A stretch of 64,000 nucleotides of DNA, from contig SRSI01000049.1 in assembly GCA_005656395.1 (NCBI GenBank), positions 558,001-622,000 on the forward strand, in the 5' to 3' direction. Source of the stretch: Strongyloides papillosus (lineage: Eukaryota > Nematoda > Chromadorea > Rhabditida > Strongyloididae). The first letter of the stretch is position 1. Every line of letters starts with the position of its first letter. Under the pieces are notes generated by a model, which saw only the letters and a program-made list of their open reading frames with translations, did no database searches and was not told the origin of the DNA. Of the stretch, positions 3,257 to 50,280 are shown piece after piece. The position numbers were made by a program, and so were the translations under genes.

Positions 3257-3401
3257 TTTTAATTTAGTTATTCAAATTAATGTAAAACGTAATTTTTAAA
3301 TATTTTTAATTTGTTTATTATATCACTATTTAATACGTCTAGAAAAATGAATTAATTTATATAGATTCTTATAAATTTATTATTTGTTTGGTCTAACTAC
3401 A

Positions 3402-3974
3402 ATGGTTGCAACAGAATTTAATCCACAAAAAATTTATGTAAACGAAGATGGTACAATAGGTAATTTTTATTATTGTCATATTTTAATTTTTAAAATAGAG
3501 TATTTAAAGACCAACAGACCAATTAAAATATATGCTGATGGAGTATTTGACTTATTTCATATTGGACATGCAAAATTATTTGAACAAATTAAAGAAATTT
3601 TTCCTAATAGTATTTTGTATGCAGCTGTTGTAAAGGATGAGGATACATTTAAATATAAAGGAGCATACCCAGTAATGAACTATCGTGAGAGATGTGCTGT
3701 TGTACAAAGTTGTAGACATATTGATAAATTTATTATGAATCCACCTTTCTACCCAACAATAGAATTTATTGATAACCTCAATATTGACATTGTTGCTCAT
3801 GATGGTATCCCTTATCCAGTTGATGGGATGGAGGATTCCTACAAACCATTCAAAGATGCGAATAGGTTTTTACCAACCCAACGTGAAGATTTTATTTCAA
3901 CAACTGACATTGTCAAGAGGATTTTGAATAACTATGAATCTTTGGTTAAATTAAAAAAATTCCAAAATATTTAA
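3402..3974 (+). CDS. Choline-phosphate cytidylyltransferase, catalytic domain only
   Basis: The ATG is at 3402. Exons are 3402-3459 and 3499-3974, with a 39-nt intron (3460-3498) that is itself in frame and stop-free. The spliced protein is about 177 residues. It shows the cytidylyltransferase fold signature: IYADGVFDLFHIGHAK with HxGH at residues 40-43, and the C-terminal substrate loop ending ISTTDIV (about 152-158). PCYT1 family enzymes make CDP-choline from CTP and phosphocholine in phosphatidylcholine synthesis. The roughly 360-residue animal enzymes add an amphipathic membrane-sensing domain and a phosphorylated tail, and both are absent here. The product may be soluble and unregulated by membranes, which is inference. 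The partner at 26615-27187 differs at two residues. Confidence 0.88.
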   Translation: MVATEFNPQKIYVNEDGTIGNFYYCHILIFKIEYLKTNRPIKIYADGVFDLFHIGHAKLFEQIKEIFPNSILYAAVVKDEDTFKYKGAYPVMNYRERCAVVQSCRHIDKFIMNPPFYPTIEFIDNLNIDIVAHDGIPYPVDGMEDSYKPFKDANRFLPTQREDFISTTDIVKRILNNYESLVKLKKFQNI

Positions 3975-4227
3975 TTTATTATAATATTAGCACTTAATCA
4001 TTCTATAACTCTTTTTTGTTTCTACAACATATTGAAAATATGGTTTACAATTAATAAAATTTTTGAATATTAAAAAATGGTATTTTTCTTTTAAAATCTT
4101 TATTTTCACCAACATTCGTTATAGTCAATTTAATATTATATTTGGTTATGCAACAATAATATGTTTTATATTTCCAAAGGAACAATTTTAAAAATATTTT
4201 TGGTATAATAAAAACATTACAAGTTCA

Positions 4228-4470
4228 GTGTATAGTTTAGGTTGTCTTACATTTAATCACAAACAATTATTCTGTCTGCTGGAGAGAATCGATCACAGTA
4301 ATAGATCAAGAAAAATCCACGAAAAGTTTCAAATCTCAAAAACTCATAGAAACCGGATTGAAGGAAGATCTACTATCGACGTTGATAACGATATAAGGTA
4401 CTATGGTAAAATATCTATTGGAAATACGAATCAGAAGTACTTTCTAGTAGAATTAATTCAAAATTTTTTT
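4228..4470 (+). pseudogene. Relic resembling aspartic protease N-terminus (copy 2)
   Basis: An open frame reads DVDNDIRYYGKISIGNTNQK followed by a short hydrophobic stretch. This matches the start of mature pepsin/cathepsin-D enzymes (YYGxISIGTPxQ), but the DTG active site that should follow is missing. Upstream residues are basic, as in a propeptide. There is no start codon with a signal peptide. It is tail to tail with the GT31 gene at 4559-5649 and recurs at 540-790 and 26150-26361. The protease call rests on this motif alone. Confidence 0.5.
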
Positions 4471-4558
4471 GTCATATGTAATTTCCAGTTCAAAAATTTT
4501 TTATTTATTAAAAAAATTGTTTATATGCATATACTTTTAAAAAATAAAGCTAATTTAT

Positions 4559-5649
4559 TTACTTTCTAAAGTTGTACTGTGAAAACTGTTCTATTAATGC
4601 CAATTTTTGATTAACTTTCAATTTTGTGTCGATATTATCGCTACTCTCCATCCTATTCAGTCTGGAATTCCTTCCTATTACTTCCACGTGGTATAGAAAA
4701 TACTCCATAGCATACATCATATCACCTCTAACGTAGTGAAAAGTTATTGGAAAATCAGCGACAGCAGTCATTGAAGTATTATACTGAAACTTTGCCATCC
4801 CAATAAATCCTTGTTTGAAGGCATTAACTGCAGGAGACAGTGCTCTTGGAGGATCCAATACATTGAACAAAACTCTATCCCTACTATCGAGACTCTTACT
4901 TGGTATCGCACCTAACTTTTCTAAACATAACCCAACTTCAAGATCATCAAAAGCTTCATCTGTCTGTCTACAATACTTTGAGTCACCAAAGCCCTTTTCA
5001 ACTAACTCCTTGACGCTTCTCCTACTCATAACATAACCAGCTCCACCACTGTTGTATGCATGAGGGTCAGATTTACCACCGACTGCCAATCTGAATCCGT
5101 GATAACCATGCTTATTTGGATCCTCTTTCAACAGGAAAGCCCTCAAATTCTCCATAACAACGTACGTATCATCATCCGCCTTGATATACCAATCGTACTT
5201 GTCACCATATTTTCTCCAAACATGTCTCAGTGTATTTTTCATCTTCCCAAAAGAGAATGAATATCCATCGTTGTGATAAGCCTTGAAAGTTGGGATATCT
5301 TCGCTCTCTTCTCCAGATCCAAAGATATAGTTGTTGCATCTTTTTATCCATGTCTGCTTTTGAAGTATGGCCCTTTCCCTGTTGACTTTTGATGTTAAAA
5401 CGATGCAGAACACTTTCACTGTTTTTGTCATTTGTGAGTTTATTGTGCTAAACACTAACAAATAAAAAGTTGTAGAAAATATCAAAACCGTAACTTACCT
5501 GAATCATCAAAAGAGTTGTTGAAAAGTTTTTCATACTGCGGTTGATTAATACTATTCTCTTCACCACGTAAAACACAAACAAATAGAAGAAAAATTAATA
5601 AAGTGCAAAGAATTAAAATAACACAGAAAAACTTTTGAATACTTATCAT
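4559..5649 (-). CDS. GT31 core-1-like beta-1,3-galactosyltransferase (copy B)
   Basis: Exon 1 is 5499-5649 (ATG 5647-5649) and exon 2 is 4559-5454, with a 44-nt GT..AG intron at 5455-5498. The product is about 348 residues: a short cytosolic start, one signal-anchor of about 25 hydrophobic residues, then the Golgi-lumenal catalytic domain. DDD of the DxD motif is at about 144-146, SGGAGY at about 186-191 and DDLEVG at about 220-225, the order typical of C1GALT1. Longer N-terminal reading without splicing would begin inside the intron, so the spliced model is preferred. It differs from the right-arm copy C at only two residues, unlike the DUF273 pair. Acceptor specificity cannot be read from sequence. 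Confidence 0.88.
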
Positions 5650-8391: not shown

Positions 8392-9531
8392 TTAATCTTC
8401 TATTTTTGTTACATTACTTTCCTTAATATATTTCATATGTTTATCGTGGGCACGATCAACCTGAACTTTAAGTTTATCATTTATAGTTTTACAATCCGTC
8501 TTGAAAGACTTATCACAATCCCAAAGTTTCAAAAAATCGGAATTTTTACATATTTTTTCATCTGCTAAAAATTTTCTTTTAAATAAATTTTTACGAAGTT
8601 CAATTTTTTTTTCTTTCAAACCATGATGGAATAACTCATCATCACAAAATGTATAGTCAGAAAGCCATGAATCCCTTGACCACCTCTTTTTAGATAATTT
8701 TCTAACAATTTTTATTTTTCCTCCTTCATATGTATGATAATTAATATCATTTGGAGTTTCATCTATTAAATTTAAAATATATCTCATACACGAGACAAAT
8801 AACATATTCTCCTCAAGTCCATTTCCTATACTATTGTATATTTCCATACATCGCAAATATTTGTTATGATGTTCTACAATTCCTATGAATTCAGCAAAAA
8901 CTGCATGAAGAGCAACGTTATCTCCAAAAAAATTCTTCTTAGGTTTTTTGTATTGATAATCAGCAAAAATTTTCAAAAAATTTCTTGTGTAAAGCGTATT
9001 TTTTATTATATAACTTCCTGCCATTATTTCACTATTATGAGTTCTATCATAAAATAGAATATCTTCTTCACCTTTTGGAAGGTAATTTTCTATTCTATGT
9101 ACTGGGTTAACTACCATAATATCAGCATCAATTATTACAATGTACTTTATTTCATTTTTATACCTTTGTGCATAGTTAGCAACTATACAATGTCTTCGGA
9201 AAAAAAATTCAGGCTGATTGCAGTTATAAGTAAATTCCGGAAGTTCTTGCGTATTTAATATTGCAAAAGTATAATTATGATGCCAAGAATAACATTTAAC
9301 GGTTGCTATTGCTTGTTTATACTTGTATTCAACGGCACCATCAATTACTGTAACAATAGCGATTTGATGTGGTTGTAATGTATCCTTTATTGAGTTATCA
9401 GTAGTTGTTATATTATTTCTGAAATTGTAAAAATGTATATCCTTAGAAGCAGTAACCATTATTTGATATAATATAAAAAATGATAACAAAATTAAGAAGC
9501 ATGTTGAGAAATGGCGAGCAAACAAAATCAT
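8392..9531 (-). CDS. DUF273 nematode putative glycosyltransferase (left copy)
   Basis: A single-exon frame of 379 residues with ATG at 9529-9531. An N-terminal hydrophobic segment (about residues 8-25) fits a signal-anchor or signal peptide. The core has IIDADIMVVNP with the DxD-type metal site at 135-137. A conserved tail block, WSRDSWLSDYTFC..ELFHHG, lies at about 284-304. Both are hallmarks of DUF273, a nematode-expanded family related to GMA12/MNN10-type galactosyltransferases. The substrate is unknown. A cysteine-containing C-terminus suggests a secretory-pathway enzyme. Copies of the 525-bp-unit element flank it on both sides in opposite orientation. The right-arm paralogue is about 90% identical by eye. 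Confidence 0.87.
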   Translation of the reverse strand: MILFARHFSTCFLILLSFFILYQIMVTASKDIHFYNFRNNITTTDNSIKDTLQPHQIAIVTVIDGAVEYKYKQAIATVKCYSWHHNYTFAILNTQELPEFTYNCNQPEFFFRRHCIVANYAQRYKNEIKYIVIIDADIMVVNPVHRIENYLPKGEEDILFYDRTHNSEIMAGSYIIKNTLYTRNFLKIFADYQYKKPKKNFFGDNVALHAVFAEFIGIVEHHNKYLRCMEIYNSIGNGLEENMLFVSCMRYILNLIDETPNDINYHTYEGGKIKIVRKLSKKRWSRDSWLSDYTFCDDELFHHGLKEKKIELRKNLFKRKFLADEKICKNSDFLKLWDCDKSFKTDCKTINDKLKVQVDRAHDKHMKYIKESNVTKIED

Positions 9532-9589
9532 AGTTGAGATGTCTTTATTGAATGACTCGAAATTTCATAAAATTTAAACAATTCTATAC

Positions 9590-21014: not shown

Positions 21015-21064
21015 TTGTTTAAATTTTATGGAATTTCGAGTTATTTAATAAAGACATCCCAACT

Positions 21065-22204
21065 ATGGCTTTGTTTGCTCGTCGTTTCTCGACATCCTTC
21101 TTAATTTTGTTAACATTTTCAATGTTATATCAAATAATGGTTACTGCTTCTAAGGATATACATTTCTACAATTTCAGCAATGTTAATACAACTACTGATA
21201 ACTCAATAAAGGATACATTACAACCACATCAAATCGCTATTGTTACAGTAATTGATGGTGCCGTTGAATACAAGTATAAACAAGCAATAGCAACCGTTAA
21301 ATGTTATTCTTGGCATCATAATTATACTTTTGCAATATTAAATACGCAAGAACTTCCGGAATTTACTTATAACTGCAATCAGCCTGAATTTTTTTTCCGA
21401 AGACATTGTATAGTTGCTAACTATGCACAAAGGTATAAAAATGAAATAAAGTACATTATAATTATTGACGCTGATATTATAGTAGTTAACCCAGTACATA
21501 GAATAGAAAATTACCTTCCAAAAGGTGAAGAAGATATTTTATTTTCTGATAGAACTCATAATAGTGAAATAATGGCAGGAAGTTATATAATAAAAAATAC
21601 GCTGTACACAAGAAGTTTCTTAAAATTTTTTGCTGATTATCAATACAAAAAACCTATAGGTAATACTTTTGGAGATAATGCTGCTCTTCATCCAGTTTTT
21701 GCTGAATTCATTGGAATTGTAGAGCATCGTAACAAGTATTTGCGATGCATGGAAATATACAGTACTCATAAATCGGGAATTGAGCCGTATATGTTATTTG
21801 TCTCGTGTATGAGATATATTTTAAATTTAATAGATGAAACTCCAAATGATATTAATTATCATACATATGAAGGAGGAAAAATAAAAATTGTTAGAAAATT
21901 ATCTAAAAAGAGGTGGTCACGAGATTCATGGCTTTCTGACTATACATTTTGTGATGATGAGTTATTCCATCATGATTTCAAAGAAAAAGAAATTGAACTT
22001 CGTAAAAATTTATTTAAAAGAAAATTTCTAGCAGATGAAAAAATATGTAAAAATTCCGATTTTTTGAAACTTTGGGATTGTGATGAGTCTTTCAAGACGG
22101 ATTGTAAAACTATAAATGATGAACTTAAAGTTCAGGTTGATCGTGCCCACGATAAACATATGAAATATATTAAGGAAAGTAATGTAACAAAAATAGAAGA
22201 TTAA
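21065..22204 (+). CDS. DUF273 nematode putative glycosyltransferase (right copy)
   Basis: Single exon, 379 residues, ATG at 21065. It has the same features as its left-arm partner: an N-terminal hydrophobic anchor, IIDADIIVVNP with DxD at 135-137, and the SWLSDYTFCDDELFHHD block near 290-304. Differences from the left copy cluster in the N-terminal anchor, at about 197-210, and at about 233-241, where STHKSGIEPY replaces NSIGNGLEEN. This clustering may mark a specificity loop, but that is inference. The coding frame is intact. Confidence 0.87.
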   Translation: MALFARRFSTSFLILLTFSMLYQIMVTASKDIHFYNFSNVNTTTDNSIKDTLQPHQIAIVTVIDGAVEYKYKQAIATVKCYSWHHNYTFAILNTQELPEFTYNCNQPEFFFRRHCIVANYAQRYKNEIKYIIIIDADIIVVNPVHRIENYLPKGEEDILFSDRTHNSEIMAGSYIIKNTLYTRSFLKFFADYQYKKPIGNTFGDNAALHPVFAEFIGIVEHRNKYLRCMEIYSTHKSGIEPYMLFVSCMRYILNLIDETPNDINYHTYEGGKIKIVRKLSKKRWSRDSWLSDYTFCDDELFHHDFKEKEIELRKNLFKRKFLADEKICKNSDFLKLWDCDESFKTDCKTINDELKVQVDRAHDKHMKYIKESNVTKIED

Positions 22205-24939: not shown

Positions 24940-26030
24940 ATGATAAGTATTCAAAAGTTTTTCTGTGTTATTTTAATTCTTTGCACTTTATTAATTTTTC
25001 TTCTATTTGTTTGTGTTTTACGTGGTGAAGAGAATAGTATTAATCAACCGCAGTATGAAAAACTTTTCAACAACTCTTTTGATGATTCAGGTAAGTTACG
25101 GTTTTGATATTTTCTACAACTTTTTATTTGTTAGTGTTTAGCACAATAAACTCACAAATGACAAAAACAGTGAAAGTGTTCTGCATCGTTTTAACATCAA
25201 AAGTCAACAGGGAAAGGGCCATACTTCAAAAGCAGACATGGATAAAAAGATGCAACAACTATATCTTTGGATCTGGAGAAGAGAGCGAAGATATCCCAAC
25301 TTTCAAGGCTTATCACAACGATGGATATTCATTCTCTTTTGGGAAGATGAAAAATACACTGAGACATGTTTGGAGAAAATATGGTGACAAGTACGATTGG
25401 TATATCAAGGCGGATGATGATACGTACGTTGTTATGGAGAATTTGAGGGCTTTCCTGTTGAAAGAGGATCCAAATAAGCATGGTTATCACGGATTCAGAT
25501 TGGCAGTCGGTGGTAAATCTGACCCTCATGCATACAACAGTGGTGGAGCTGGCTATGTTATGAGTAGGAGAAGCGTCAAGGAGTTAGTTGAAAAGGGCTT
25601 TGGTGACTCAAAGTATTGTAGACAGACAGATGAAGCTTTTGATGATCTTGAAGTTGGGTTATGTTTAGAAAAGTTAGGTGCGATACCAAGTAAGAGTCTC
25701 GATAGTAGGGATAGAGTTTTGTTCAATGTATTGGATCCTCCAAGAGCACTGTCTCCTGCAGTTAATGCCTTCAAACAAGGATTTATTGGGATGGCAAAGT
25801 TTCAGTATAATACTTCAATGACTGCTGTCGCTGATTTTCCAATAACTTTTCACTACGTTAGAGGTGATATGATGTATGCTATGGAGTATTTTCTATACCA
25901 CGTGGAAGTAATAGGAAGGAATTCCAGACTGAATAGGATGGAGAGTAATGAAAATATCGACACAAAATTGAAAGTTAATCAAAAATTGGCATTAATAGAA
26001 CAGTTTTCACAGTACAACTTTAGAAAGTAA
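24940..26030 (+). CDS. GT31 core-1-like beta-1,3-galactosyltransferase (copy C)
   Basis: Exon 1 24940-25090, a 44-nt intron, exon 2 25135-26030. The product is about 348 residues with signal-anchor, ADDDTY at about 143-148, SGGAGY at about 186-191 and DDLEVG at about 220. Only two residues near the C-terminus differ from copy B (ESSDN versus ESNEN). The first ATG is 35 bp downstream of a repeat element boundary, so the core promoter must lie in or overlap that element. The same arrangement holds for copy B. All GT31 copies in the window share the position and phase 1 of the intron. Confidence 0.88.
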
Positions 26031-26149
26031 ATAAATTAGCTTTATTTTTTAAAAGTATATGCATATAAACAATTTTTTTAATAAATAAAAAATTTTTGAA
26101 CTGGAAATTACATATGACAAAAAAATTTTGAATTAATTCTACTAGAAAG

Positions 26150-26361
26150 TACTTCTGATTCGTATTTCCAATAGATATTTTACCATAGTACCTTATATCG
26201 TTATCAACGTCGATAGTAGATCTTCCTTCAATCCGGTTTCTATGAGTTTTTGAGATTTGAAACTTTTCGTGGATTTTTCTTGATCTATTACTGTGATCGA
26301 TTCTCTCCAGCAGACAGAATAATTGTTTGTGATTAAATGTAAGATAACCTAAACTATACAC
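26150..26361 (-). pseudogene. Relic resembling aspartic protease N-terminus (copy 3)
   Basis: Mirror copy of 4228-4470 with the same YYGKISIGNTNQ block and no catalytic DTG. It lies tail to tail with GT31 copy C, as part of the duplicated arm. Confidence 0.5.
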
Positions 26362-26614
26362 TGAACTTGTAATGTTTTTATTATACCAAAAATATTTTTA
26401 AAATTGTTCCTTTGGAAATATAAAACATATTATTGTTGCATAACCAAATATAATATTAAATTGACTATAACGAATGTTGGTGAAAATAAAGATTTTAAAA
26501 GAAAAATACCATTTTTTAATATTCAAAAATTTTATTAATTGTAAACCATATTTTCAATATGTTGTAGAAACAAAAAAGAGTTATAGAATGATTAAGTGCT
26601 AATATTATAATAAA

Positions 26615-27187
26615 TTAAATATTTTGGAATTTTTTTAATTTAACCAAAGATTCATAGTTATTCAAAATCCTCTTGACAATGTCAGTTGTTGAAATAAAAT
26701 CTTCACGTTGGGTTGGTAAAAACCTATTCGCATCTTTAAATGGTTTGTAGGAATCCTCCATCCCATCAACTGGATAAGGGATACCATCATGAGCAACAAT
26801 GTCAATATTGAGGTTATCAATAAATTCTATTGTTGGGTAGAAAGGTGGATTCATAATAAATTTATCAATATGTCTACAACTTTGTACAACAGCACATCTC
26901 TCACGATAGTCCATTACTGGGTATGCTCCTTTATATTTAAATGTATCCTCATCCTTTACAACAGCTGCATACAAAATACTATTAGGAAAAATTTCTTTAA
27001 TTTGTTCAAATAATTTTGCATGCCCAATATGAAATAAGTCAAATACTCCATCAGCATATATTTTGATTGGTCTGTTGGTCTTTAAATACTCTATTTTAAA
27101 AATTAAAATATGACAATAATAAAAATTACCTATTGTACCATCTTCGTTTACATAAATTCTTTGTGGATTAAATTCTGTTGCAACCAT
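26615..27187 (-). CDS. Choline-phosphate cytidylyltransferase, catalytic domain only (right copy)
   Basis: Exon 1 27130-27187 (ATG 27185-27187), a 39-nt intron 27091-27129, exon 2 26615-27090. The 177-residue product matches the left copy except for K to R near residue 10 and N to D in the VMxYRERC segment. HIGH and ISTTDIV motifs are intact. The membrane-binding C-terminal domain of full-length PCYT1 is absent in both copies, so its loss predates the duplication. Confidence 0.88.
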   Translation of the reverse strand: MVATEFNPQRIYVNEDGTIGNFYYCHILIFKIEYLKTNRPIKIYADGVFDLFHIGHAKLFEQIKEIFPNSILYAAVVKDEDTFKYKGAYPVMDYRERCAVVQSCRHIDKFIMNPPFYPTIEFIDNLNIDIVAHDGIPYPVDGMEDSYKPFKDANRFLPTQREDFISTTDIVKRILNNYESLVKLKKFQNI

Positions 27188-27626
27188 TGTAGTTAGACCA
27201 AACAAATAATAAATTTATAAGAATCTATAAATATTAATTCATTTTTCTGGACGTATTAAATAGTGATATAATAAACAAATTAAAAATATTTAAAAATTAC
27301 GTTTTACATTAATTTGAATAACCAAATTAAAAATTAAATTGTTTGACAAATTCAATGTATTTTTGTAATAGATTTTATCTTATGCACACGTTAAAAGATG
27401 AAAATAAATTTTGATTCTTATATTGTCATTTTACTTGTCAATCATAAAAGTAGCGTCGTCTCAGGCATTTGAATATTTATCACTTTCGATTAAATTTTAA
27501 TTGCAGAAAATATGTTTAAAAATTATTTACATTTTGCTTTTGTTTTTTAGAAATTAAAATATTTTCTTTGTGGATACTTGTAATATTAGGAAATGATAAA
27601 TTAACTATAATTACATTTTTTTATGA

Positions 27627-39381: not shown

Positions 39382-40871
39382 ATGAAAAATAAAAACATTG
39401 TTTTATTGCTTATTTTTCTTTTTGTTATATTTAGCTCTGTAAGTTAGTAGTTAAATTTGACTATAAAATAATTATTAAAGTTCCAAGCAAATGATTTAGT
39501 ATCCATAAATGAAGAAAAGGACTTAGAAAATACTAATAAAATAAGTGCAATTTTAGAAAAAATTGTACAGAAAGTACTAAAAATAAGTGGTGGATTCGTA
39601 GAAAAATTTACACAAAATAATAACAAAATTAATGAAATAAATAATAATATTGGTAAAAATCCAAGACTATTTCAAGGTGATGTAGTTCTTAGTTCACAGG
39701 AAGGAGAAGAAATATTAAATCAGGTTGTAGAAAATGTTGAAAATGCAGGAATTGATGTTTCTGAAATTATTGGTGAAACAGAAAGAAGAAAAAAAGAAAA
39801 ATGAGTGGTAATATGACTCTTGCCTGGGACTTTCCTATACTATATATTGTTGAAGAGGGAGTCAACGATACATTAGTTGATGTAGCTCTAAAAAAAATGG
39901 AAGAACAAACATGTATAACATTTAGAAGAGAGTTTGCCTTAGTTCCTAATAAAGCAGGTTTAAGATTTTTTAAAGGAACTGGATGTTATAGCTACATCGG
40001 CAGAAAGTTTCTAGATATATTTCAAGATGTAAGCATTGGAGAAGGGTGTGAAACTATTGGAACAATTCAACATGAGACGATGCATGCATTAGGGGTTTAC
40101 CATGAACAAGCAAGAGCTGACAGAGATAAGTATTTAAAGATATTTTTAGAAAATGTTGAAGAAGGAAATGAATTTAATTTTCTTAAAGTTGAGCCAAATT
40201 CTTCATTTACTTATTATACAAAATATGATTATGGATCTGCTATGCAATATCCCAGCAATGCATTTAGTATGAATAATAGCATAACAATGTTGCCAATTAA
40301 ACCGCACTATAATAAGACTCTTGGTGTGAATAGTGGAATGACTTTTGTTGATGTCAAATTGTTAAATAAACATTACTGCAAAAATAATTGTCCAAAGGAA
40401 ATTAAGTGCGAAAACAAGGGATATCAAAGTCCCATAAACTGCAGTAGGTGCATTTGCCCAGATGGTTATTTTGGAGATTATTGTACTGAGTTACCTCAAA
40501 AAAAACCAAGTTGTGGAGATCCAGTTATTGAAATTACAAAAAGAAAAAAATATTTGTACACTGCTGGTAGTGGAAATTGTATTCATCACCTTAATACAAC
40601 ATCAGATAAAAAATTAAAAATAACTTTTACATTTTTAAATTATTATCCCGGTTACGAAGGTCGTTGTAAATTGGAAAATAGTCTTGAAGTAAAATACTTG
40701 AAAGATAAAACAGTGACTGGAGCACTCTTTTGTTTAACAGATAATGCTACAATAATATCTAGAAATAATCATGTCATTGTTCATCACAGGAGTACTCAAA
40801 CCAATAATGGTGCGACTTTAGTAATTGAAAGTATTGAAGATTCAAGTACAACAAGTTCGAAAAAAAATTAA
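39382..40871 (+). CDS. Astacin-family metalloprotease with EGF and CUB domains; one apparent frameshift
   Basis: Exon 1 39382-39438 encodes a signal peptide. A 42-nt intron (39439-39480) precedes a propeptide exon whose frame stops at TGA 39802-39804. The mature enzyme continues in the next frame from 39801 to 40871. The break sits in an A-rich run (39784-39801), so a one-base indel, real or technical, is likely. The catalytic domain has HETMHALGVYHE, with zinc ligands and catalytic Glu, about 91 residues into the second frame, and YDYGSAMQY as the Met-turn. Then come an EGF-like segment (C..CICPDGYFGDYC) and a CUB domain starting CGDPVIE. This order is that of nematode NAS proteins. Secreted astacins are expanded in Strongyloides and used in tissue invasion. 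A short Ser-rich tail ends it. Confidence 0.85.
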
Positions 40872-45407: not shown

Positions 45408-45415
45408 TATAAATA
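45408..45415 (+). promoter_or_regulatory. TATA box of small secreted gene 1
   Basis: TATAAATA lies 40 bp upstream of the ATG and is followed by the conserved GGAATGATTTCAATTGAGA. The same box and spacing occur at 47614 before the paralogue, and the box recurs at 52407. Confidence 0.65.
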
Positions 45416-45447
45416 TGGAATGATTTCAATTGAGAACCAACATCAAA

Positions 45448-46044
45448 ATGCATTTTATTAAATATTTTGCTATTTTTGTTCTTTTAGCTGTTCAATACAG
45501 TTCCCAAGAATCTTCCTCATCATCTGAAAGTCTTTCTTCATCTGAAGAGCAACAATTAGAAGTTACTAATCCAATAGAAATATCATCAACTATTGATGAA
45601 GTACCAGTTGATACAGATAAACGAAAGAAATTTTTCTTTAAAAACCTTGGAGCTAGTATTAAAGAAAAAAGTAAAAAATTTAAAGACAATTTGAAACATA
45701 AATTTAGTGAAGATAATATTAAAAATGAATTGGTATGTACTTAAGTCATTTCATAGCTATTTTTTTTAGAAAAAAACTAATAATTTATTGAGTGAAGCTC
45801 TTAAAAAAGGAAAAAATAAGCTTAAGGATAGCGCAAAAAATATGAAGAAGAATCTTGCTAAATTTTTTAAAGGTAAAACCTTCAATAAATCTGGTTCAGA
45901 TGAAAACGATACTAGATTAAAAAGATCAATTATTACAAAAATTGTAAGTTATAAACAATTGTTTTTAATTTTCTTTACTAGGGAAAAGTAGCTAAAAATG
46001 CTGTAGTTACTAAAGCTAAGAAGGCATTAAAAAAGTTATTCTAA
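45448..46044 (+). CDS. Small secreted Lys-rich precursor 1 (putative cationic peptide precursor)
   Basis: Three exons (45448-45732, 45770-45943, 45982-46044) with 37- and 38-nt introns, all phase 0, give about 173 residues. The ATG at 45448 starts a signal peptide (MHFIKYFAIFVLLAVQYSS). A Ser/Glu run follows (ESSSSSESLSSSEEQQ), then Lys-rich segments that can form amphipathic helices. There are two dibasic sites, DTDKR and TRLKR. The last 26 residues after TRLKR are strongly basic with a hydrophobic spacing and end KKALKKLF. Acidic pro-part plus basic helix after KR is the layout of many antimicrobial or membrane-active peptide precursors. The function is inference; no named family was recognised. 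The paralogue is at 47654-48245. Confidence 0.8.
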
Positions 46045-47613
46045 AAAAGTTTCAGAATCTTATGAATAAAAATATATAGAACTGGATTGTTTAATGATAA
46101 ATATTTTTGATTTACATCAAACATTACACATAATAAAATCCATCATTAAAAAGTAAATTATTTAATTAACTAAAAAGATAAATAATAGAATACATGATTT
46201 TGCTATGTTTTTGTAAATCTTTTATATTTTTTTAATAAATTATTGTCATTTAATTTGAACATTTTCTAATTATTAAAACTTTTTTGTTGAATTTAAAAAA
46301 ATCTATGCTTACGACAAATTTACTTATAACTATTTCATTTTATTATATTCTTACAAATATTTGTGTTGTTCCATGTAAAACTCTCCATAATTCTAAATTT
46401 ATAGCTTTGTTTATTCTGAGATACAAGTGTGATATTATGTTCATCTTTTAGTCAAGAAATATACAACCATATCTTATGGATTCCATATTAAAATCGAAAT
46501 TTTAAATAACGTTATTAATCTTCAAATTTAAAGAGCATTTTTAAGATTATAACCAAAGTAACTTTTTTATATAAAAGATTGTTGTTGAAAGGTTAGCTTA
46601 TTTCTATGCATTTATAAAATACCATTTACGTAGAAGTCTGATAATTATGGTTAATATTTTTATTACATTTCTTCAATAATTCAAGAAATTTAATGCAACA
46701 ACTGTAAAAAATCATATAAGAAAATTATTTTAAATATTTCTTTATAATTTTTTACAAAATCTAACACATTTTTAATAAGAATATTCCGAATTTTAGAAAT
46801 TTGTTTCAATGAATAGATAATAGAGTTTTACATAAAAATCTTTTTGTAGTTTTATCTGTGTATTAAAAATCATTAAAAATAAAAATTGGTAATAATTCTG
46901 TTTCTTTTAATGTTTCTCAAAAATATCACAAACTTCAAAATTTGGATCAAAAAGAAGTTTAGAGGAAAATTTGCTTCGAAATATACGTAAATTACATGTA
47001 AATTCATTCTTAAATGTTTAGTAGTTCATTGATAGACATCATAAAAAAGTTTGAAAAATTACTATTTTTCTTATTTTTTAGTTGTCACAGAACATTTGCG
47101 ACATATTGTCACAAAATTCTCACAAATGTTTTTATTGTATGATGATTGGTATTCTACAATTTTGTTTGATGTTAACATCTAAGAATCACCTTAAAATATA
47201 CTATAAAAACATGTCAAATGTAACATAATAAAATATTTTAAGTACGATAAAAGCTATAAAATTAGGAAAAATACATTTTATTTTGTAAAATGTGCAGCTT
47301 GTAATTAAATCATCGACGATAGATATTTTTTATAAAATTGTTAAATATTTTTAGTATTTATTTGTTATTTCAAATCCATCGTAACTATTTTAATATTTAT
47401 AGATAAAGTTTACTTTGAAAAAGAAGATAATAAAAAAACAACTTTTATAATGAACTAAGTTAATATTTTTAAAAAATAAATATATTTTAACAATAAACTA
47501 ATATAATTAATCACAAAAAATATTGTAATCCTTGTCTTTTTGCATAAAATATCATGTTTATTTTATAAATATAGATTGATTTTTTCTTTTAAATTAAAAT
47601 ATATTGAAATAGG
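46045..47613. other. Intergenic DNA between tandem paralogues, part of the duplicated unit
   Basis: The first 400 bp resemble 48260-48640 (3' flank). The stretch 46620-47600 resembles 51400-52400 (5' flank of the third unit). No gene. Confidence 0.55.
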
Positions 47614-47621
47614 TATAAATA
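47614..47621 (+). promoter_or_regulatory. TATA box of small secreted gene 2
   Basis: TATAAATA lies 40 bp before the ATG, with the same downstream AGAATGATTTCAATTGAGA block as gene 1. Confidence 0.65.
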
Positions 47622-47653
47622 TAGAATGATTTCAATTGAGAAGCATCATCAAA

Positions 47654-48245
47654 ATGTATTTTACAAAATATTTTGCTATCTTTGTTATTTTGGCTGTTCA
47701 ATATAGTTTCCAAGATTCTTCATCATCTGAAAGTCTTTCTTCCTCTTCTGAAGAGAGACAATTAGTTGATGGTAGTTTAAACGAAATGTCGTTACCTGAT
47801 GCTAACGTAGAAAAGCAAAAGAAAGGTATATTAGGAAAAATAAGAAGTGGTATTAAAGAAAAAACTAAAAGCGCAAAATATATTTTGAAGAAACAACTTG
47901 GTAAAGAAAATCTTAAAAATAAATTTGTATGTATTAAATTCTTTTTTTAATTATTTATATTTAGAATGAAGTAAAAGAAAAATTGGATAATAGTTTAAAA
48001 AAAGATAAGAAAAAAATAGAAAAAACTTTTAAAAATTTGAAAGAACGCGTTAGCGGACTCTTAAGGAAAAAACTTTCTGCTAAATCTGATTTAAATGAAA
48101 ATGAAACTAGACTGAAAAGATCATTTCTTGGAAAAGCCGTAAGTTACGATGGAATATTTTAATTTTTTCTTAGGGAAAAGGAGCTAAAAGATTACTAGAC
48201 AAAGGAGCCAGTAACACTAGAGCATTATTAGAGAAACTATTTTAA
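47654..48245 (+). CDS. Small secreted Lys-rich precursor 2 (putative cationic peptide precursor)
   Basis: Exons 47654-47926, 47965-48138 and 48174-48245, with introns of 38 and 35 nt in the same positions and phase as gene 1. The product is about 172 residues. A signal peptide is followed by DSSSSESLSSSSEERQ, then Lys-rich helical stretches. The TRLKR site is conserved and precedes a basic C-terminal peptide of about 28 residues ending LLEKLF. The second exon keeps its length (58 codons) while its sequence has diverged strongly. The KR site, the Ser/Glu run and the signal peptide are the most conserved parts. This supports processing at KR, though nothing here proves it. Confidence 0.8.
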
Positions 48246-48959: not shown

Positions 48960-50280
48960 GAGATTTTGGCCTGTAAATTATTTTTGAATTTCTGGGTTTT
49001 TTTTAGTGAAATATATCTAGGAAAACATGGTAAAACAAAATATCAAATATTAGCTCCATACGATATGCCGTTCTTGAGATACATCGACTTAAAGGTACCA
49101 AATTCCAAATTTTGGTACCTCCATATCTCCCTCAAAAATTAATTTTTTTGTTCGAAATTTCGCAATTAGTCATCATTTTTAATGCTTATTACGTATAAAC
49201 AATAAAATCCAGCAAAAGAAAAATTCAATCTCCAGATTTGGGATATCGTCGAAAATGATACTTTTTACCCCAAATTTTACCTCTTTGGAGCGACATATCT
49301 CGCTACAGAAAACAAAATTCAAAACAATTCAAAAATGCTCCCGGGGTAATTAATTTCTCTACATTTTAAGACTATTTTCAAAGAAATCTGACAACTTTGA
49401 GAATGAAAAACCTTTGACAAACCTTTTTTTGGGATTTTCTATTTTTGTAAAAATTTCGACTTTGAGACTAAATAGATATATGAAGATGTCAAAATATTTA
49501 TATAGTTTCTTTGGCAAAGTTATTCATAAAATAATTCTCTATCAAATGACGTTAAGCATGATTTGATAGAACCACCCTGTCCCGAGATATAGTGATTTAA
49601 AAAATCTACCAAATTTTTGGCAAAAAAATTTTTTTTGATTTTGAGGTAGAAAAAAAGTACAAAAATGAAAAGCAATCAAAAAAACAAAAAAAGTATATCT
49701 GGAGAATTTTGTTGTGAACATTTCAAGGGTATTTTCAAAAAAATCGGATAACTTTGAATATGAGAGAACTAAAAAAAACTTTTTTTGGGAATTTTTTTCT
49801 TCGTAAAAATTTTGACTTTGAGACTAAATAAATATATGAATATGTCAAAATATTTATATAGTATCTTTGGCAAAATTATTCAAAAAACAATTCTCTATCA
49901 AACGACGTTAAGCATGATTTGATAGAACCACTCTGTCCCGAGATATAGTGATTTAAAAAATTTACCAAATTTTTGCCAAAAAAATTTTTTTTGAATTTGA
50001 GGTAAAAAAAAGTACAAAAATGAAAAGCAATCGAAAAAACAAAAAAAGTATATTTCGAGAATTTTGTTGTGAACATTTTAAGATCATAAGCAGCAATATA
50101 TGTTATACTGTTCTTGAGATATCTGGGGAAATGCTGAAACATGTTTCCAAAAAAATGTTTAAAAATTCTCTAAAAGTCGTATTTTTTCTAACTTTTATAC
50201 GACTTAAACATCTATTTTCTATATTATTATGCAATTTAATTTTAAAAATAAGTTTTAGTGATTATTTGATGCCATTTTAA
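48960..50280. repeat. Non-coding repeat region with 356-bp tandem pair
   Basis: Two direct repeats of about 356 bp lie at about 49380-49735 and 49736-50090, seen for example in GACGTTAAGCATGATTTGAT at about 49549 and 49905. Each contains ACTTTGAGACTAAAT and CTGTCCCGAGATATAGTGAT. Similar phrases (ATATCTCCCTC, GCGACATATCTCGCT) continue upstream to 48960. Open frames here are short and follow the repeat. Confidence 0.65.

Follow-up and report, generated by a model that had tools for sequence, protein, structure and literature searches.

Organization of the gene pair

The window, a stretch of 64,000 nucleotides from Strongyloides papillosus (G000:C33:558001-622000; the assembly searched comprises 58.2 Mb), contains two open, three-exon paralogues arranged in tandem on the plus strand, at 45448-46044 and 47654-48245. 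Their spliced genomic models encode proteins of 173 (gene 1) and 172 (gene 2) amino acids, identical at 71 of 179 aligned positions. The two have a common layout: behind a putative signal peptide comes an acidic Ser/Glu stretch, then a strongly cationic middle and an RLKR site, and each protein ends in a cationic tail, of 26 residues in gene 1 and 29 in gene 2. Every element that the first-pass annotation had described at this locus is present in open frames, from the signal peptide, Ser/Glu run and Lys-rich segments to the TRLKR motif and the basic tail ending in LF.

Gene 1 is preceded by a TATA-like box (45408-45415) and a 5' leader, which together span 45408-45447; the same block precedes other members of the family. 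Exon 1 (45448-45732, 285 bases) codes for the signal peptide (45448-45507), the acidic stretch and the first Lys-rich part. Exon 2 (45770-45943, 174 bases) continues the Lys-rich part and includes the RLKR site (45914-45925) and tail residues 1-6 (45926-45943). A phase-0 intron (45944-45981), whose sequence is conserved across subfamilies A, B and C, follows six codons past the site, and exon 3 (45982-46044, 63 bases including the stop) supplies the remainder of the tail. Gene 2 repeats this plan with a TATA-like box (47614-47621) and leader at 47614-47653, exon 1 at 47654-47926 (273 bases; signal peptide 47654-47713), exon 2 at 47965-48138 (174 bases; RLKR site 48109-48120, again followed by tail residues 1-6), the phase-0 intron at 48139-48173, six codons past the site, and exon 3 at 48174-48245 (72 bases including the stop). 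Introns of the pair are 35-38 bases long with GTATGT or GTAAGT donors. The TATA-like boxes may act as promoter elements. The exon lengths, earlier said to be kept, are kept only in exon 2; between the two genes there is a difference of 12 bases in exon 1 and of 9 in exon 3.

The charge is distributed unevenly along the precursors. Acidity is confined to the first 30-odd residues behind the signal peptide, where the net charge is -10 in gene 1 and -7 in gene 2. The next 81 residues carry +20 in both genes and are amphipathic too, in gene 1 more so than the tail. The pro-part as a whole is net positive (+10 and +14), and the earlier description of it as acidic applies to its beginning alone. A copy of gene 2 is found at C42:209701; its open frame diverges and stops early within exon 1.

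A family headed by a common 5' cassette

Searching with a 28-residue signal-peptide query identified 108 places on 15 contigs, all 108 candidates being scored: 86 at E <= 0.001 and 22 above 0.001, the weakest at E 0.19, and three with an internal stop. A query of the divergent C39/C44 type added six more places, four with stops. These are places rather than independent genes, since the C39/C44 and C33/C42 sets and a mirror array on C31 may be allelic or recent copies, and the pair counts in the family comparisons below are likewise not independent. The pair in the window is tandem, as first proposed, but with 108 signal-peptide places the family is not a two-gene one. The C31 array (G000:C31 426676-469618, L009-L013) consists of subfamily A genes in mirror image, five plus-strand members facing six on the minus strand.

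Gene models were built from 83 of the 108 places, the others having less than 300 bases of DNA or none, and gave 81 models, 80 of them distinct. C10:723422 and C10:725067 were dropped because no ATG stood at the expected spot after shifting to codon 1. C31:465111, in which a single intron was found, was left out of subfamily A, and C1:793626 was left out of the trees, which used 19 of 20 subfamily B models. C16:549005 and C16:540992, whose last exons are doubtful, were retained among the 41 tails described below.

Members of other subfamilies match gene 1 over the first 60-133 coding bases only (40 of 66 candidates scored). These first coding bases and the 75 bases upstream of them are the most similar part between subfamilies; the upstream 75 bases are 87% identical in the window pair. 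When the 84 bases upstream of gene 2 were used as the query, 15 places were found, 14 of them directly before subfamily A start codons and the 15th upstream of another member, C28:253781. A hydrophobic N-terminus, the presumed signal peptide, is kept across the family.

What follows this 5' cassette is more varied. No RX[KR]R motif past residue 25 was found in 36 of the 80 distinct models, some of which are cut-short models, so the cassette heads other proteins too. The site-less types include a 112-residue type on C28/C37, acidic types on C1 and C19, the C39/C44 type, whose ends are Lys-rich, and two long acidic proteins, C7:1577876 and C3:898241, in which the same signal peptide stands ahead of open frames of about 220 residues. 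What all members share is the cassette, and of the proteins that it heads the peptide precursors form the largest class.

Three protein searches of a 5.8-billion-protein set yielded 32 proteins; the 31 named ones comprise 25 from S. papillosus and six from S. venezuelensis, two species that form one subclade (PMC5979966). S. ratti and S. stercoralis were not among the 32, in searches that depend on shared five-residue words and similar length and may miss distant relatives. RLKR or RKKR and a basic tail are retained in each of the six named S. venezuelensis relatives, all of which were compared. UniRef proteins P0001, P0006 (both subfamily A) and P0008 are identical to spliced genomic models of sister genes (3/32 UniRef proteins compared). 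The UniRef models P0021, P0023 and P0026 resemble fusions of tandem B genes or forms of them with a retained intron, whether by annotation error or real splicing; P0023, for instance, combines an exon 1 like that of C1:193589 with an exon 2 like that of C1:4041274.

Putative cleavage site, intron and tail

An RX[KR]R site past residue 25 is present in 44 of the 80 distinct models and is followed by at least 18 residues in 41. The site is tied to the last intron. Among the 61 distinct models with a phase-0 last intron, 41 have RX[KR]R at most 14 codons upstream of it, against 0.16 expected from shuffles, and in 27 of these 41 the gap is exactly six codons. The arrangement noticed in the window is therefore not due to chance. 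In the UniRef alignments RXKR shows no variation at its R, K and R in any of the seven A hits or the 15 aligned B hits (15 of 19 B hits; P0021, P0023, P0025 and P0026 were left out). Two subfamily C genes carry RREQR at the site.

The phase-0 intron is 0.72 identical between subfamilies A and B, 0.75 between A and C and 0.78 between B and C, compared with 0.52 after shuffling; that of the C16 group is less similar, at 0.61-0.66 with A, B and C. Nucleotide identity of the pro-parts between subfamilies is 0.23-0.54 (A-B 0.23, B-C 0.28, A-C 0.50), values that are lowered by unlike lengths and are to be set against 0.51 for shuffled upstream DNA. As the intron is recognizable across subfamilies and the pro-parts are not, the site, intron and tail appear to have been inherited as a unit. 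The earlier proposal that a secreted precursor is processed to a peptide finds good support in this pattern, in which the putative RX[KR]R cleavage site and the phase-0 intron after it persist as the remaining sequence changes. A hydrophobic N-terminus and an RX(K/R)R motif ahead of a C-terminal peptide, the features by which furin/kexin-type prepropeptides would be recognized, are both found, and the genome has seven subtilase-family matches.

The 41 tails are mostly basic and linear: 36 have a charge of +5 or more, 39 are Cys-free and 35 lack proline. The C-terminal triplet is KLF in 18, KLL in five, KLA in four, KVF in three, KLH in three and something else in eight. The helical moment at 100 degrees exceeds that of composition-matched shuffles (mean z +1.6; p<0.05 in 23 of 41), with no excess at the strand angle of 160 degrees (mean z -0.57). 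Cationic, Cys-free and amphipathic, the tails have the sequence characters of linear alpha-helical antimicrobial peptides. Within the window pair the excess holds for the tail of gene 2 (p 0.024) but not for that of gene 1 (p 0.24 against its own shuffles). Nor are the tails alone in this property, because the middle of subfamily A (13 models) is likewise amphipathic (z 1.1 to 2.8), with a charge of +16 to +22, which counts against a special role of the tail. AlphaFold models of the sister proteins P0001 and P0008 are of low confidence, with mean pLDDT of 57 and 59.

Tails of subfamily B (19 models) fall into six short ones, of 25-27 residues with 0-1 acidic residues, and 13 long ones, of 37-51 residues with 5-8. 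The short type has more hydrophobic residues than the long and nearly no acidic ones. A neuropeptide reading was rejected, as the tails reach the stop without an amidation glycine before a basic site.

Divergence and exon exchange

Between the window paralogues dN/dS is 0.17 in the signal peptide and 0.69 in the tail. Pooled Nei-Gojobori estimates for the subfamilies agree. The signal peptide is constrained (A 0.16, B 0.12, C 0.34, D 0.20), and the tail is not, with values of 0.70 in A, 1.06 in B, where unlike tails are mixed, 0.72 in C and 1.37 in D, which is based on five pairs. The pro-parts lie near the tails (A 0.74, B 0.84, C 0.94, D 1.04). With pairs whose tails are more than 97% identical excluded and gaps counted, the peptide-coding DNA shows lower conservation than the adjoining intron in 67 of the 70 pairs from A, in 14 of 15 for short B and in 75 of 77 for long B; the numbers are 67, 13 and 75 when gaps are ignored. 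The 3' flank, too, is better conserved than the peptide-coding DNA, in 57 of the 70 A, 14 of 15 short-B and 63 of 65 long-B pairs. These comparisons show that the peptide DNA is accelerated relative to its flanks. They are not proof of positive selection, because short introns carry splice constraint.

In subfamily B the two ends of the genes have different histories. Judged by exon 2 and 3' flank, four of the short-B genes, all on C1, group as a clade (96/96), but the same grouping is rejected by the 5' flank and exon 1 (AU p 0.00036). This four-gene subset was chosen after the exon 1 tree. The six-gene short-B class, which was set by tail length before any tree, is rejected as a clade too (p 0.00033). 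The two regions conflict: in subfamily B, recombination or conversion has moved the peptide exon from one first exon to another.

Relation to known peptides

Pfam searches placed the proteins in no known family. The Pfam Cecropin profile matched none of nine proteins and ten tails, the frog antimicrobial peptide profile PF08023 hit one of ten tails at 13.7 bits against a cut-off of 22, and DUF148 or Ani s 5 was not listed for nine spliced models (E up to 1) or for P0001-P0007 (E up to 10). Sequence search of the PDB gave nothing for one short B tail or for the gene 1 tail, and the B alignment gave only hits of E 0.072 or worse. With the A alignment, syntaxin was hit at E 0.0027 through the Lys-rich helical middle; this was read as charged-helix likeness.

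A published description of the family was not among the matches listed in literature searches aimed at it. Irvine et al. mined helminth proteomes for antimicrobial-like peptides in 2023 and added eight new active linear-type helminth peptides (PMC10414684). One of the peptides in Table 7 of that paper, the 50-residue nAMP-LP-13, agrees with the C1:640370 tail at 37 of its 50 positions and shares 23 identical residues with that of C1:4039758; the match scores 182, compared with 70 for the best of 200 shuffles. By this match, nAMP-LP-13 as tabulated is a long B-type peptide of the present family. The earlier statement that no described family was recognized stands for Pfam, but a long-type sister peptide has this published match. 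Its reported activity is low, with MICs of 512 ug/ml on E. coli K12 and 256 ug/ml on A. baumannii; four other strains were unaffected. Cecropin P1, by comparison, had an MIC of 8 on both E. coli K12 and A. baumannii (PMC10414684). A general antibacterial claim is weakened, at least for the long type, because nAMP-LP-13 is weak. The published pipeline, as described, excluded proteins above 150 amino acids, which puts the 172-173 residue type of the window outside its scope. The string 'Strongyloid' is absent from the main text, and in the account consulted no superfamily, gene structure or exon swap is described.

Several multigene systems are similar in part. Conotoxins are disulfide-rich peptides. 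Their superfamilies, like the family here, combine a conserved signal peptide and introns conserved within the superfamily with a fast-changing mature-peptide exon (PMC3862624). Conotoxins however have a cysteine framework, whereas 39 of the 41 tails are Cys-free, and no relationship by descent is claimed. Mussel myticalins are likewise multigene, hypervariable, linear, cationic and lineage-restricted, but their mature part lies between the signal peptide and a C-terminal propeptide where the tail here is C-terminal, and their activity has been shown where that of the peptides here is a prediction (PMC5577615). In Schistosoma japonicum a family of dispersed genes shares a common core promoter and signal sequence. 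It belongs to a flatworm, has another signal peptide and, in the account consulted, neither a furin site nor a cationic tail is reported (PMC3434034). A 2023 survey recognized five nematode antimicrobial groups, of which the linear helical one is the cecropins; these share the linear amphipathic helix with the present tails but are reported only in Ascaridoidea (PMC10506718). As that survey describes them, the Strongyloides family is none of the five.

Proposed function

The reading preferred here, at a probability of about 0.6, is that the window genes belong to a large S. papillosus superfamily of secreted prepropeptides, furin-type precursors that release membrane-active peptides. The signal peptide would direct the precursor into the secretory pathway and a furin/kexin-type convertase would cut after RX(K/R)R. 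The C-terminal peptide so released, linear, Cys-free and cationic, would fold as an amphipathic helix and act on microbial or host membranes outside the worm cells; the acidic N-terminal stretch may help to mask the basic parts until cleavage. Duplication, fast peptide change and exchange of peptide exons behind a fixed 5' cassette could then generate a varied set of peptides. The architecture of the sequences, the conservation pattern, the exon swap in subfamily B and the limitation of the named hits to two species are observed; secretion, cleavage, the helix, membrane action and the tissue are predictions of differing strength. Secretion and cleavage of the precursor by a convertase are very probable, membrane activity of the tail is somewhat favored, and an antibacterial role in nature is rather doubtful. 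Against this reading count the weak activity of nAMP-LP-13, the gene 1 tail at p 0.24, an amphipathic middle that is more basic than the tail, the 36 site-less models among 80, the low-pLDDT AlphaFold models and RREQR in two subfamily C genes.

The released peptides might, rather than breaking microbial membranes, be venom-like ligands that signal to host cells or modulate immunity, their variety tracking hosts and not microbes. The fixed signal peptide with a fast tail, as in conotoxins (PMC3862624), and the low antibacterial activity of the long B-type match (PMC10414684) are consistent with such ligands, as is an ORF for an astacin metalloprotease (39777-40871; PF01400, E 1.8e-53) 4.6 kb upstream of the pair, astacins being among the families reported as raised in Strongyloides parasitic females (PMC5979966). 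Against them, there is no cysteine frame and the C-terminal triplet varies. This alternative is unlikely, if the strongest of the others. Less probable still is that the proteins stay uncut and serve as Lys-rich helical secreted proteins binding lipid, DNA or sulphated sugars, perhaps apolipoprotein- or LEA-like. The amphipathic, highly charged subfamily A middle and its syntaxin hits fit such proteins, as do the 5-8 acidic residues of the long B tails and a weak apolipoprotein hit of P0002 (E 0.00066, 19.9 bits against a cut-off of 90). An uncut protein leaves unexplained the invariant R, K and R of RXKR and the distance kept between them and the intron. Adhesive secretions of S. venezuelensis do bind sulphated carbohydrates, but they are reported to consist mainly of trypsin-inhibitor-like proteins (PMC6327390). 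Membership in DUF148 (SXP/RAL-2, Ani s 5-like) is suggested by automatic UniRef names of several hits and, with no such model listed in the searches above, is hardly credible.

A wider form of the membrane-active reading is possible, if tentative. The mammal-parasitic S. papillosus/S. venezuelensis lineage may have evolved a conotoxin-like arsenal of about 100 secreted loci, in which a single promoter and signal-peptide cassette serves repeatedly and the exons for C-terminal membrane-active peptides change places and are driven apart; its targets at the host surface would be the microbiota or the cells of the host. The combination of a fixed signal and a likely cutting site with a changing cationic end peptide is more familiar from cone-snail venoms and mussel antimicrobial peptides. 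A large, fast-evolving superfamily of linear peptides in Strongyloides would open the question of how the worms deal with bacteria and with the tissue of the host, and the family is a natural series for following cassette swapping of mature peptides. The weak result for the long type (PMC10414684) can now be compared with the short type, which is more hydrophobic and nearly acid-free. S. papillosus, a threadworm of livestock, has been reported as a cause of sudden death in calves (title cited in PMC11662772); no link to these genes is implied.

Other features of the window

Directly downstream of the pair, at 49448-50092, lies a tandem repeat with a 356-base unit, present in 1.8 copies with 92% matches. 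Farther from the pair, an inverted block (3375-5494 versus 25095-27214, and also 8392-9564 versus 21023-22204) is near-identical by eye. It contains a cytidylyltransferase-like ORF and a Fringe-like ORF, identified by Pfam on one copy each, and DUF273-type ORFs are also found in opposite orientation.
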